From Candidatus Saccharimonadota bacterium (GTDB taxonomy: Bacteria > Patescibacteriota > Saccharimonadia > Saccharimonadales > Saccharimonadaceae), in NCBI GenBank assembly GCA_030528355.1, contig JAUMZA010000006.1:1-54789 (forward strand): DNA of 54,789 nt, given 5' to 3'. Within the stretch, counting starts at the first letter, position 1; each line of letters starts with the position of its first letter. Below are positions 35,287 through 42,005 of the stretch, in pieces. The notes under the pieces were generated by a model. It worked only from the letters and a program-made list of their open reading frames with translations, did no database searches and was not told the DNA's origin. A program made the position numbers and the translations under genes.

Positions 35287-35973
35287 TTACGATTGCTCAA
35301 CCGCCCGCACTACTACTCGCTGATCGTAGGTTTCCTGGGCAGGAATCCACTTACCCGTACAGCTAATCAAGCTCAAACCCTGGGCACCACTGCTAACAGA
35401 TTTCGCAGCTTTGTCCATCCCCCCGTTGTTCATATCTTCTAGGCTGATGGTGGTATTTTCCTTAATGATATAGGTGATTTTTTTGCCATCACCGCGCTCA
35501 ATCACAATCGTACTACCAACCTGCAATTTTGGCAGATGTTCAAACACGCCGCCTTTTGTAGGGCCACCATTATGTCCATCAATCAACACTGCACCAAAAT
35601 CCTCACCCGGCAACGAGCTTTTTGTATACCAGCCAGTATCGTGAATATTGCGTGGCGTATCAACTTCGCCGTTTGCTCTTACACCCACGCCAAGTACTCT
35701 GGCATTAGTAATACCTAAACTTGGGATAGAGATAAAACGAGGATGCAATGGCGATACGGTGTGTTCTTGCTTTTTTTCTGGCGCAACGGGTGTTTCTTCT
35801 ACATCGGTACGAGCCGTTACTACAGGGATCGGCACTGGTGGCAGTTCACCCGCAGTGTAAAAACGATATCCGTACCACATAGTCGCTCCACACAAAAAGA
35901 AGAAAATACTCCAAAATGCCCATATACCAAGATGAAGTGATTTCTTTTGACGAATATATAATCCCGTCGACAT
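35287..35973 (-). CDS. Class E/F-like sortase (228 aa)
   Basis: Cysteine transpeptidase that attaches proteins to the cell surface. Order: N-terminal membrane anchor (HLGIWAFWSIFFFLCGATMW), Pro-rich linker, sortase domain with catalytic His in LIDGHNGGPTKGG, Cys in SLISCTGKW, and Arg in DQRVVVRA. The start at 35973 lies 7 bases after TATACT, so it is preferred to a longer ORF that includes the promoter. Its substrates (LPxTG-like signals) are not in the window. It has replaced adk-map between secY and infA. Confidence 0.9.
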   Translation of the reverse strand: MSTGLYIRQKKSLHLGIWAFWSIFFFLCGATMWYGYRFYTAGELPPVPIPVVTARTDVEETPVAPEKKQEHTVSPLHPRFISIPSLGITNARVLGVGVRANGEVDTPRNIHDTGWYTKSSLPGEDFGAVLIDGHNGGPTKGGVFEHLPKLQVGSTIVIERGDGKKITYIIKENTTISLEDMNNGGMDKAAKSVSSGAQGLSLISCTGKWIPAQETYDQRVVVRAVEQS

Positions 35974-35980
35974 ACTACCT

Positions 35981-36009
35981 AGTATAGCAAAAGCCCCCTG
36001 CTGCTTCAA
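35981..36009 (-). promoter_or_regulatory. Promoter of the sortase (leaderless)
   Basis: Minus strand TTGAAG (36004-36009), 17-base spacer, TATACT (35981-35986), 7 bases to the ATG. The -35 box sits in the loop of the secY terminator hairpin. Confidence 0.75.
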
Positions 36010-36017
36010 CAAGGGGC
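35989..36017 (-). terminator. Terminator of secY
   Basis: Minus strand GCCCC/GGGGC (36013-36017 with 35993-35997) with the loop spanning the next promoter's -35, then TTTTGC. Confidence 0.65.
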
Positions 36018-39015: not shown

Positions 39016-39555
39016 TTACTTACCTGTCTTTCCTGCCTTGCGAAGAATCACTTCATCAGCATACTTAATACCCTTGCCCTTGTATGGTTCAGGCTTCTTC
39101 AACGCACGGATTTCAGCCGCAACTTGACCAACTTTTTGCTTGTCGATACCGCTTACGGTAATTTCCATTTTGTTAGTAGTAATTTGCACATCTGCTGGTG
39201 CAGTGTACTTTACGGGATGGCTAAAACCAAGGCTCATTTCGAGTGTTTGGCCACTCATACCAACACGGAAACCAACGCCATTTACCTCGAGCTTCTTTTC
39301 GTAGCCCTGGGTAACGCCAATTACCATATTGTTGATAAGTGCACGCATCAAGCCGTGTTGTGCACGTGCTTCGCGTGATTCATCCTTAGGATGTACCGTC
39401 ACTTGTCCGTCTTCGACCTTCACGTCGACAGCTGGTGTAATGAACTGGGTAAGTTCACCTTTAGGACCTTTTACAGTCACATCACCAGAGTCAACCGTAA
39501 TTGTCACACCTGACGGAATCTCGACTGGTAGTTTTCCGATTCGACTCAGACTCAC
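39016..39555 (-). CDS. rplF: 50S ribosomal protein L6
   Basis: 179 aa from GTG at 39555 (MSLSRIGKLPVEI), with AAAGG 7 bases upstream, giving the family start; the ATG at 39597 would add 14 residues not in the family. LMRALINNMVIGVTQGYEKK and PEPYKGKGIKY are typical. It starts a new transcript because the spc operon is broken here. Confidence 0.95.
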   Translation of the reverse strand: MSLSRIGKLPVEIPSGVTITVDSGDVTVKGPKGELTQFITPAVDVKVEDGQVTVHPKDESREARAQHGLMRALINNMVIGVTQGYEKKLEVNGVGFRVGMSGQTLEMSLGFSHPVKYTAPADVQITTNKMEITVSGIDKQKVGQVAAEIRALKKPEPYKGKGIKYADEVILRKAGKTGK

Positions 39556-39631
39556 TTTAGTACCTTTCGTTGTTGCATGAGCATCACGAGCAATCACCCG
39601 TCACCTCACACAGATTAATAGTAACCTTGCT

Positions 39632-39660
39632 ATTGTAGCAGAAAGTTACGAGAAATACAA
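39632..39660 (-). promoter_or_regulatory. Promoter of the rplF-rplR-rpsE-rplO operon
   Basis: Minus strand TTGTAT (39655-39660), 17-base spacer, TACAAT (39632-39637). Confidence 0.75.
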
Positions 39661-39706
39661 GGAAGATAATGGCCTACACAAGACTGAATTAGCTTTTTTG
39701 CTTACC

Positions 39707-40666
39707 TTAGTATCGCACATCATTCTCATCATAAGTATCACACACCACTTGCGCAAGCAGGTCTCGCACGGTCGCCTCGTTCGCTACAGATCGCCAACCT
39801 TCACCACCCATAACACCGCCACCCAAAATATCATTAAGCGTAGCCCGCCCAAGCGGCGCAAACTCTAGCGCATCGGCATAGCGCTCAACCCCTTTGGTGA
39901 GCCTTTGGCAAAACACACCAGTCAGTAAGTTTTGCTGATACCTAGCAAACAGTTGCTTTATTTTGTGCGGATCCGGTGTATCGTCCCTGTAAAATCGCGG
40001 AAAGAACCGATACCCAACCGTTGGCGACGCAGTCGACCACTGATCGCCCGTGTCGTAATAGGTATAATAGTCTCGCATGTACACGATAAAATTGAGCACC
40101 ACCGCTTGCAGTACAGCCGCCGCCAAGGCTCGCAGCGGCAAGCTTGGCGTATGGCCGGCATCAATCGAAAACTCTACGGCGTACTCGCAAAAATAATGCT
40201 CATCTACTTGCTTATAGTGCGCATACGGCGTGCGGTGCAGCGTGTTAATAGAGGTCGCATCATCCGCCTGCTCGTACATAAAGGTGCGGACATCTTGCCA
40301 AGGCTGACGCTGTATATGCTGGAGATTCGAGGTAAAGCTCGCAATGTCAAGCTCGGTGGCCGCCCTTTGGGCTTCGATCGCACATTCATGCGCCGCCCTG
40401 GTGGTAGTTTTGGGCGAAAAACTCACTTCGTCCGCTTGATGAATATATCGCACCGCCTCATCTACCACCTTGCCATTAAGCGATTCAATAGTAAGATAAC
40501 ACGTCGTGCCATACGTAGCGGCGTGAAACGTATAGTCCGCCGCAAGATACTGCCCCGCCGCTTGCATCCGACTCATCACATAATGAGCAACGATATGCTC
40601 GTAGGCGTGCGTCAACAAGCCGTCGCTGGCGGTTGTTTTGCAAAGTGTGATAGATGCGAATGTCAT
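39707..40666 (-). CDS. M16-like HxxEH protein inserted in the spc operon (319 aa)
   Basis: Near the N-terminus GLLTHAYEHIVAHYVM carries the inverted zinc motif HxxEH of M16 (pitrilysin-type) peptidases, preceded, as in that family, by a short strand. A candidate third ligand is a Glu about 70 residues on (HECAIEAQRAATE). The length is about that of a single M16 half-domain plus. It has no signal peptide, and GC is similar to neighbours. No clear ribosome site. Enzyme activity is unproven; it could also be an inactive relative. It stands between rplF and rpsH. Confidence 0.62.
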   Translation of the reverse strand: MTFASITLCKTTASDGLLTHAYEHIVAHYVMSRMQAAGQYLAADYTFHAATYGTTCYLTIESLNGKVVDEAVRYIHQADEVSFSPKTTTRAAHECAIEAQRAATELDIASFTSNLQHIQRQPWQDVRTFMYEQADDATSINTLHRTPYAHYKQVDEHYFCEYAVEFSIDAGHTPSLPLRALAAAVLQAVVLNFIVYMRDYYTYYDTGDQWSTASPTVGYRFFPRFYRDDTPDPHKIKQLFARYQQNLLTGVFCQRLTKGVERYADALEFAPLGRATLNDILGGGVMGGEGWRSVANEATVRDLLAQVVCDTYDENDVRY

Positions 40667-40721
40667 GTATTTAGCGTAGCATAATTCGCAAAATGTGCGG
40701 CAAAAAGATACTTTTACCAGT

Positions 40722-41004
40722 ATGACTATCTTTACAAAAGAAGAAAATCAAGCCTGGGCACACTCGCTGCCCGGTAAAATGTGCAGTGCCTGCTTGGCAA
40801 TTGTTGACGGCGATGCCGTGCTGATGGTAAAAGCACGCTACAAAGATCACTGGACGCCATAATGAAATCGAGACTGCAAAATGGGTAAAATTTGAAGATG
40901 TTGCTACATATGCTAATAATAAGGCCAGTTATAGAGAGTTACAGCGAATATTACCACAAAAATTAGATGATAGCGACATCTCGCCACGATATATAGAAAT
41001 TTAA
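40722..41004 (+). pseudogene. Nudix hydrolase remnant with internal deletion and frameshift
   Basis: The first part (40722-40862, 46 aa) reads like a Nudix N-terminus: MCSACLAIVDGDAVLMVKAR, then YKDHWTP where intact members continue with FPGG and the Nudix box. It stops there. In the next frame (from 40861) the sequence resumes as NEIETAKWVKFEDVATYANN, a typical Nudix C-terminal part, up to the stop at 41004. The catalytic GxxxxxExxxxxREUxEExGU box is therefore missing. This is most simply a deletion that also shifted the frame. Confidence 0.75.
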
Positions 41005-41012
41005 CAAACAGC

Positions 41013-41519
41013 TTACTTTCTCATCTGCACCTGAGTGCCCGCAAGTATATCGCCGAGGTGTCGCTTGTCACGACGTGCTATACCCATGTAGAACATTACC
41101 AAAAACAACCCGCAAGAAACAAGCATAAGAGTGACACTTACAGTATCAAAATCAGTAAACATGCCATGAATCACAGCCATGTGTCCAATTTGCCATGGTA
41201 AAAATTTAATAGTATTGCGAATAAAGCTACTTACAAGAGGACCATTTGTAAAATAGATGGTTAATTTAGCCGCTCTCTTGCCAATACTGCCACCCCTGCT
41301 ATCTAGATAAGAAAACAAGGCAATAATTGGCACAACAGATGTAAATGTGGCAATGAGTTGATTTTGCACCTCGGAAAACCTAGGAATGCCACCCCAGGAC
41401 CACATGTACCACATAGCTGCCACCGCAAATAAGCCAGCGAGATAAAGGCTAATAACCAGCCAGTCAATAAATAGCTCCTTTAGACGATGCTTCAGTGTGA
41501 TAGGGTTATCTTTTTACAT
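41013..41519 (-). pseudogene. RDD-family membrane protein gene with stop at codon 2
   Basis: From GTG at 41423 down, an RDD protein is readable: GKRAAKLTIYF, SFIRNTIKFLPW and KRHLGDILAGTQV. The frame continues upstream with family-like sequence (NPITLKHRLKELFIDWLVIS, the R..D pair of RDD) to an ATG at 41519, but codon 2 is TAA (41514-41516). One change from AAA to TAA would explain it. TGGTATTAT, a -10-like box, lies 6 bases before that ATG. Internal starts would lose the first helix. Possibly a recent null allele; an assembly error is the alternative. Confidence 0.68.
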
Positions 41520-41550
41520 ATTTTTATAATACCAGAATACAGAAGATACA

Positions 41551-41581
41551 TAAAAAAGAACGCCCCCTCACGGAGCGCTCT
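41551..41581 (-). terminator. Terminator of the rplC-rpsH operon
   Basis: Minus strand AGAGCGCTCC/GGGGGCGTTCT (41572-41581 with 41558-41567), loop GTGA, then TTTTTTATG. It marks the break between rpsH and rplF. Confidence 0.8.
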
Positions 41582-41603
41582 TTTTGGCTAATGTGCAGCT
41601 GGT

Positions 41604-42005
41604 TTAGTATACCTTCAAAAGAAGTTCGCCGCCAAGTTTTTGCTTTACAGCTTCTTGGCCGCTCATCACGCCTTTACTGGTGCTGACAAGCACCATGCCT
41701 CGGCCTGATTTTACCTTTGGAATTTCTGCAGATTTTACGTAGACACGGCGGCCTGGCTTACTAACACGAGTAATTTCGTTAATCGTGCAGTTTTCGCCTG
41801 GCTTATTGATGCTAATAACTAGCTCGTTGCGTGGCTTTGCTTCTGCAACAGCAACGTCGGCAAGATAGCCAGCCTTTTTTAGCTGTTCGGCAATCACTTG
41901 CTTCATCTTGCTTGCCGGTACACGTACTTCTGTTTTACCAACCATTTTCGCGTTACGGATGCGAGTAAGAAGGTCGGCGATTGGGTCTGTAGTTTGCATA
42001 GACAT
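41604..42005 (-). CDS. rpsH: 30S ribosomal protein S8
   Basis: 133 aa from ATG 42005 (GGAG 8 bases before). DPIADLLTRIRNAKMVGK, RVYVKSAEIPKVKSGRGMVL, and STSKGVMSGQEA are typical. In most bacteria the next gene is rplF; here the operon ends. S8 is the usual autogenous repressor of spc operons. Confidence 0.97.
   Translation of the reverse strand: MSMQTTDPIADLLTRIRNAKMVGKTEVRVPASKMKQVIAEQLKKAGYLADVAVAEAKPRNELVISINKPGENCTINEITRVSKPGRRVYVKSAEIPKVKSGRGMVLVSTSKGVMSGQEAVKQKLGGELLLKVY

Follow-up and report, generated by a model that had tools for sequence, protein, structure and literature searches.

A probable insertion and exchange hotspot between rpsH and rplF in the ribosomal protein cluster of a Saccharibacteria family

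Results

The window, i.e. the whole stretch of 54,789 nt that we analysed, is contig C11 of an 835-kb, 21-contig assembly (a Saccharibacteria MAG) with ribosomal proteins that have their nearest matches in Saccharibacteria, and its minus strand carries the S10-spc cluster from rplC through secY. Within this cluster the gene of ribosomal protein S8, rpsH (41604-42005, minus strand), closes the upstream part of the operon, and the gene of L6, rplF (39016-39555, minus strand), opens the downstream part. From rpsH to the GTG start of rplF at position 39555 there is a gap of about 2.05 kb, as in a preliminary description of this DNA, which had the spc operon interrupted by approximately 2 kb at this point and had placed the interruption correctly. 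The order on the minus strand is rpsH, a terminator hairpin, an RDD gene, a Nudix pseudogene on the opposite strand, a gene for an HxxEH protein, an extended -10 element and rplF. Farther along the minus strand, between secY and infA (a region often occupied by adk and map), there is an ORF of 241 aa (35287-36012) containing the residues SLISCTG, which by eye we judged to be sortase-like.

Directly 3′ of rpsH a 14-pair hairpin (41553-41585, minus strand) followed by a T-run forms an intrinsic terminator, and the sequence upstream of rplF contains an extended -10 promoter, TGCTACAAT (39632-39640, minus strand), predicted to serve rplF and the downstream half-operon. The terminator and the new promoter had both been reported before, and we find both in place. 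A further extended -10, TGGTATTAT (41526-41534, minus strand), can be read immediately upstream of the RDD start, and a transcript initiated there would be nearly leaderless. We rejected as due to chance an Rfam match to the Thr leader in the window (E 0.21, well under the gathering score), which reads the rpsH terminator on the opposite strand.

The first gene after the terminator encodes an RDD-family membrane protein (41013-41519, minus strand; Pfam PF06271, 29.2 and 29.9 bits against a cut-off of 24.1). Its sole sensible start, the ATG at 41519-41517, is directly followed by TAA at 41516-41514 and then by 166 open codons, hence the early stop previously noted falls at codon 2. The case for decay is weaker here than for the Nudix gene, because it consists of a single stop at codon 2 in a gene for which 151 family genomes contained no close homologue that could serve for comparison. 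A candidate homologue in genome G063 (E 8.7e-4) was discarded, as it sits within an unrelated 343-aa membrane protein.

The Nudix hydrolase pseudogene (40722-41004, plus strand) is in two pieces, as expected of the opposite-strand remnant that had been described: 46 codons run from the ATG at 40722 to a stop, and the C-terminal part, to 41001, lies in another frame. These fragments align to both ends of intact NUDIX proteins of 159-163 aa in G152 and G019, with 65% and 60% identity, respectively, in the N part. Relative to the intact proteins, about 69 residues including the Nudix box have been deleted near 40859/40862, together with a frameshift. Intact homologues with the box present are found at L266:1180-1659 and L267:285-776; the window copy lacks the box, i.e. 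the catalytic core that a NUDIX hydrolase should have intact, and on this comparison we judge the gene to be truly broken. The Nudix gene of G156 was also considered as the origin of the window copy and was rejected, since the two have no similarity.

The third gene (39707-40666, minus strand) is intact, as judged from its alignment with homologues, and encodes the HxxEH protein already reported for the interval, 319 aa long and with the motif H20-A-Y-E23-H24. In M16 peptidases (HxxEH inverzincins) this motif and a downstream Glu are the metal ligands. Among Saccharibacterial relatives H20, E23, H24 and E98 are nearly invariant in the alignment, so that the protein resembles M16 metallopeptidases in having HxxEH and a glutamate 74 residues later; it differs from them in its length of 319 aa and in matching no profile. 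We call it M16-like only, because profile searches gave no Pfam (including M16) and no PDB sequence match. A single-sequence AlphaFold model had low confidence (pLDDT 39.6, with one sequence as input). A 37%-identical homologue adjoins rplF in G156 and G172, which belong to another genus and in which an opposite-strand Ham1 gene takes the place of the Nudix remnant of the window. The gene is intact in these two genomes and evolves under purifying selection, with a dN of 0.24 and a dS of 2.1 between them (dN/dS of about 0.11). The small incomplete genome G015 has five genes of the HxYEH (M16-like) family (L116, L122, L123, L124, L125), some of them adjacent.

To place the interval in its family, we compared the ribosomal clusters of 139 genomes belonging to the same order, most of them MAGs, and recorded the length of each junction from rplC on to secY. 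Inserts longer than 600 bp occurred at rpsH-rplF in 27 of 118 genomes; among the 18 junctions from rplC to rplO, the 16 others up to rplO had none and rpsE-rplO had one. The second variable junction is rplO-secY, where 21 of 110 genomes exceed 600 bp (e.g. L133, L175, L236). In all of 62 non-Saccharibacterial loci, an unbalanced sample made up mostly of Lachnospiraceae, the rpsH-rplF gap was at most 265 bp. Because large inserts are concentrated in some genera (g2, g62), genome counts overstate the number of independent events; on a ribosomal-protein tree of 117 genomes, built with rpsH and rplF among the genes, at least 14 changes are needed for the large-insert state and at least 24 for the any-insert state. 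Thus one junction stands far above its neighbours, and several independent events have occurred there.

The architecture seen in the window recurs in the family. Among intervals longer than 300 bp, 23 of 31 have a terminator-like hairpin no more than 120 nt from rpsH (0.5% in shuffles), and 28 of 31 have an extended -10 no more than 150 nt from rplF; for intervals of 60-300 bp the corresponding values are 2/25 and 3/25. Intervals of the shorter class mostly hold one co-directional ORF of 35-96 codons, starting 0-5 nt past the rpsH stop and with its 3′ end in the rplF ribosome-binding site. Such small ORFs are predicted in about 24 relatives with spacers of 100-290 bp, e.g. G145 (L151), G202 (L250) and G123 (L181), and their predicted products vary, some being putative membrane peptides and some apparently acidic and helical. 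The sister species of the window (G001) has a 227-bp spacer with terminator and promoter and no cargo, and G125, of the neighbouring genus g62, is likewise cargo-free with both elements. Judging from the sequences compared, the split with its terminator and promoter is the only part common to nearby genera.

These observations bear on the possibility that illegitimate inserts arise everywhere and survive only at rpsH-rplF, the operon being there two transcription units. Both the position of large inserts, between terminator and promoter, and the retention of the two elements in the cargo-free G001 and G125 are consistent with such a permissive site. Against it, many genomes have a spacer of only 7-43 bp with neither terminator nor promoter, and near relatives of these carry inserts or co-directional small ORFs; moreover, permissiveness by itself leaves the replacement of rplF alleles unexplained. 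We therefore regard it as an unlikely account of the junction, although the strongest of the alternatives.

The history of rplF conflicts with that of other ribosomal genes. Its pairwise distances correlate 0.55 with those of all other genes, against 0.65-0.93 for the others. A clade formed by genera g1 and g35 is recovered by rplB, rpsC and rplE, is unrejected by rpsH and rpsE, and is rejected by rplF with a log-likelihood gap of 81 and an AU p of 0.008, a value that is somewhat optimistic because the clade was chosen after the identities had been seen. By these sequence comparisons rplF has the strongest history conflict among the genes compared, which could partly reflect selection and not transfer. 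As for rpsH, the window copy is 85% identical to that of G062 (genus g62) versus 80% to that of the sister G001, the nearest genome to the window for most other ribosomal genes. Family-wide the rpsH distances correlate 0.88, so that there is no incongruence of this gene as a whole; the unusual resemblance in G000 is a single instance, and the AU test gave no rejection. Separately, a record titled Nomurabacteria (L004, JAISDN010000009.1) has an rplF 72% identical to that of the window, above any Saccharibacteria-titled record in the same search; this bin probably carries a wrong label or is a mixture.

Turnover of the interval is directly visible in three pairs of near relatives. G156 and G172 differ by a dS of mostly 0.02-0.2 in the flanking genes, and rpsH with its terminator matches at 96%; the cargo on the rpsH side is unrelated, the dS of Ham1 is 0.36, and that of the M16-like gene reaches the value of 2.1 given above. 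G202 and G169, with a flank dS of about 0.1, have wholly different content in the rpsH-rplF interval: one genome carries a small ORF, and the second has a terminator, a promoter and a leader. What distinguishes G018 from G145 is a small ORF of 170 bp directly after the rpsH stop. Elsewhere in the cluster, in the S10 part of G104 and G148 (L130, L128), dS is about 0 in rplC-rplW, rplV and rpsC and rises to 0.3-1.1 in neighbouring genes, a mosaic which suggests frequent recombination across the ribosomal cluster.

The cargo itself is diverse. In an all-against-all comparison the cargo clusters were almost all singletons, the exception being a capsule gene block in genus g2, hence the cargo is almost entirely non-homologous, and no sequence common to the inserts was found. 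Pfam domains in the cargo include Ham1, HhH-GPD, P-loop kinase, ABC-F, NUDIX, subtilase, CHAP, Na/H antiporter, GDPD, Wzz/CpsB (capsule), LytR, pilin-like VWA/Cna_B, Fic, HD, YkuD and PGA_cap, among others.

The preliminary description had suggested an inserted segment in the process of loss, and it had indicated that the rpsH-rplF interval should be compared in relatives and that intact homologues of the three genes should be sought. The comparison gave no sign of the same arrangement with intact genes in all relatives, and the cargo is not ancestral; intact homologues exist for Nudix (G152, G019) and HxxEH (G156, G172), and none close was obtained for RDD. What stands of the suggestion is that the segment was inserted, being absent from the sister G001, and that two of its three genes have decayed; the same two facts would agree with a single insertion in the lineage of the window that is now decaying. 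What does not stand is its singularity, since many relatives carry other, unrelated cargo at this junction and a homologous HxxEH gene, intact there, occupies the same place in G156 and G172. The family survey contradicts a single insertion as a full account, and we consider it improbable.

Slightly less probable still is a site-specific mobile element that targets the 3′ end of rpsH or the rplF leader. The site preference is indeed strict, and in near-identical pairs the extra sequence starts directly after the rpsH stop; however, the scanned cargo contained no integrase, transposase or recombinase, the inserts share no sequence, and in the window we found neither direct or inverted repeats flanking the insert nor the attachment-site duplication that would accompany an integrative element. 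The composition of the window insert (GC 0.42-0.53, against 0.44-0.52 in its surroundings) gave no clear foreign signature. An assembly or binning artefact, for which the 21 contigs of the window genome might speak, is hardly credible, because the same architecture is present in single-contig genomes (G035, G140, G172) and in many independent assemblies, and the synteny of G156 agrees with that of G172.

Downstream of the rplF promoter, in 19 split genomes, we found a candidate leader RNA, here called R1. In this conserved element GCGAGUGAAAUCGGGAGAUUUUGCGC is followed by a variable hairpin, then by AAACAAACA and by a 3′ strand that is the complement of the start. Covariation supports the structure: in the R1 alignment 82.5% of cells were paired, versus 77.3 in shuffles and 35-52 when the alignment was slid, and there were 33 double-change cells versus 14.8 in shuffles (0 of 500 shuffles was as high, and the slid controls were lower). 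The covariance model retrieved exactly one copy each in 33 of 295 family genomes, in 15 of 61 genera, directly upstream of rplF wherever coordinates of rplF or rpsH were at hand; examples are L170:5932-6033 (minus strand), L256:13897-14003 (plus strand) and L144:5938-6040 (minus strand). No R1 was found outside the family in the order sample, and no family of Rfam 15 matches it. The leader of the window (39557-39623, minus strand) is R1-like in its flanks alone: the match is weak (18.7 bits, E 0.11 over the window), the P1-like pairing and the ribosome-binding site flanks align, and the conserved core GCGAGUGAAAUCGGGAGAUUUUGCGC is absent, i.e. R1 is missing or degenerate there. The R1 core resembles the 5′-end region of 23S rRNA (G035, L310 at about 1752-1769) over GCGAGCGAAATCGGTAGA, with 2 mismatches in 18 positions; as 2 of 200 shuffles were as good, mimicry of rRNA is a faint possibility.

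Discussion

Chromosomal hotspots of integration and recombination between conserved core genes have fixed flanks, variable and unrelated cargo, and exchange that is attributed to recombination in the flanks. The rpsH-rplF junction is like them in its fixed core flanks and its variable, unrelated cargo, and in that exchange is attributed to flank recombination. It is unlike them in lying inside an essential ribosomal operon that is normally free of inserts, and in that the flanking rplF itself shows allele replacement.

The junction is a hotspot with unrelated cargo, turnover between sister genomes, a conflicting rplF history and a terminator-plus-promoter architecture, and the interval, together with the adjoining rplF allele, changes between lineages independently of the flanks. 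We consider it quite likely that rpsH-rplF serves this Saccharibacteria family as a hotspot where insertion and exchange recur, with large inserts usually placed between the terminator and a new rplF promoter, with one living and two decaying cargo genes in the window, and with cargo swapped through recombination in the flanks. Cargo would enter by DNA uptake or conjugation and would be exchanged by homologous recombination between the conserved ribosomal flanks. A separate promoter for the downstream half may be the reason why inserts are tolerated here; cargo that brings no benefit would decay afterwards. We infer this molecular route, since the window interval yielded neither a recombination enzyme nor an attachment site or direct repeat. 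The decayed Nudix and RDD genes would then be cargo being lost, which in the window suggests the loss of unneeded genes.

In E. coli the spc operon is controlled by the S8 protein. The natural reading of R1 is thus that of a candidate leader for the detached half-operon, with a ligand and a function that we infer. Tentatively, and with rather less confidence than in the hotspot, we propose that the split after rpsH may free the downstream half from its old control, that some Saccharibacteria may have gained the putatively autoregulatory R1 before rplF, carried with the interval between lineages, and that the interval may serve as an exchange site for both cargo and rplF alleles.

For ribosomal leaders, 35 types were known and 20 new ones have been added (PMC7247131), none of these 20 having rplF as the regulated gene in Table 1 of that work. 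R1 is similar to them in being a structured 5′ UTR that occurs exclusively upstream of a ribosomal protein gene, and it differs in preceding rplF. Insertions in the same ribosomal cluster have been described in other bacteria (PMC8046335). In the parts of that paper available to us, the cases are alike in combining gene insertion with replacement (e.g. rpsN in S. pneumoniae), and they differ in that the insertions lie between operons or outside spc (rpoBC-str, str-S10, rplL-rsmC), with rplF unmentioned in the text; in our case one junction within spc is hit repeatedly. Our literature search found no report of an rpsH-rplF hotspot; most subscription papers and all preprints were outside its scope, and priority is not established.

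The adjacency of S8 and L6 is usually taken as fixed, and here it is a site of gene exchange. For CPR trees the standard markers are syntenic ribosomal proteins, and a conflict of L6 with the other genes matters there. The junction also yields a candidate new ribosomal leader RNA and unannotated predicted small proteins between S8 and L6, and it is a place in which the gain, swap and decay of genes can be watched in the reduced genomes of episymbionts.
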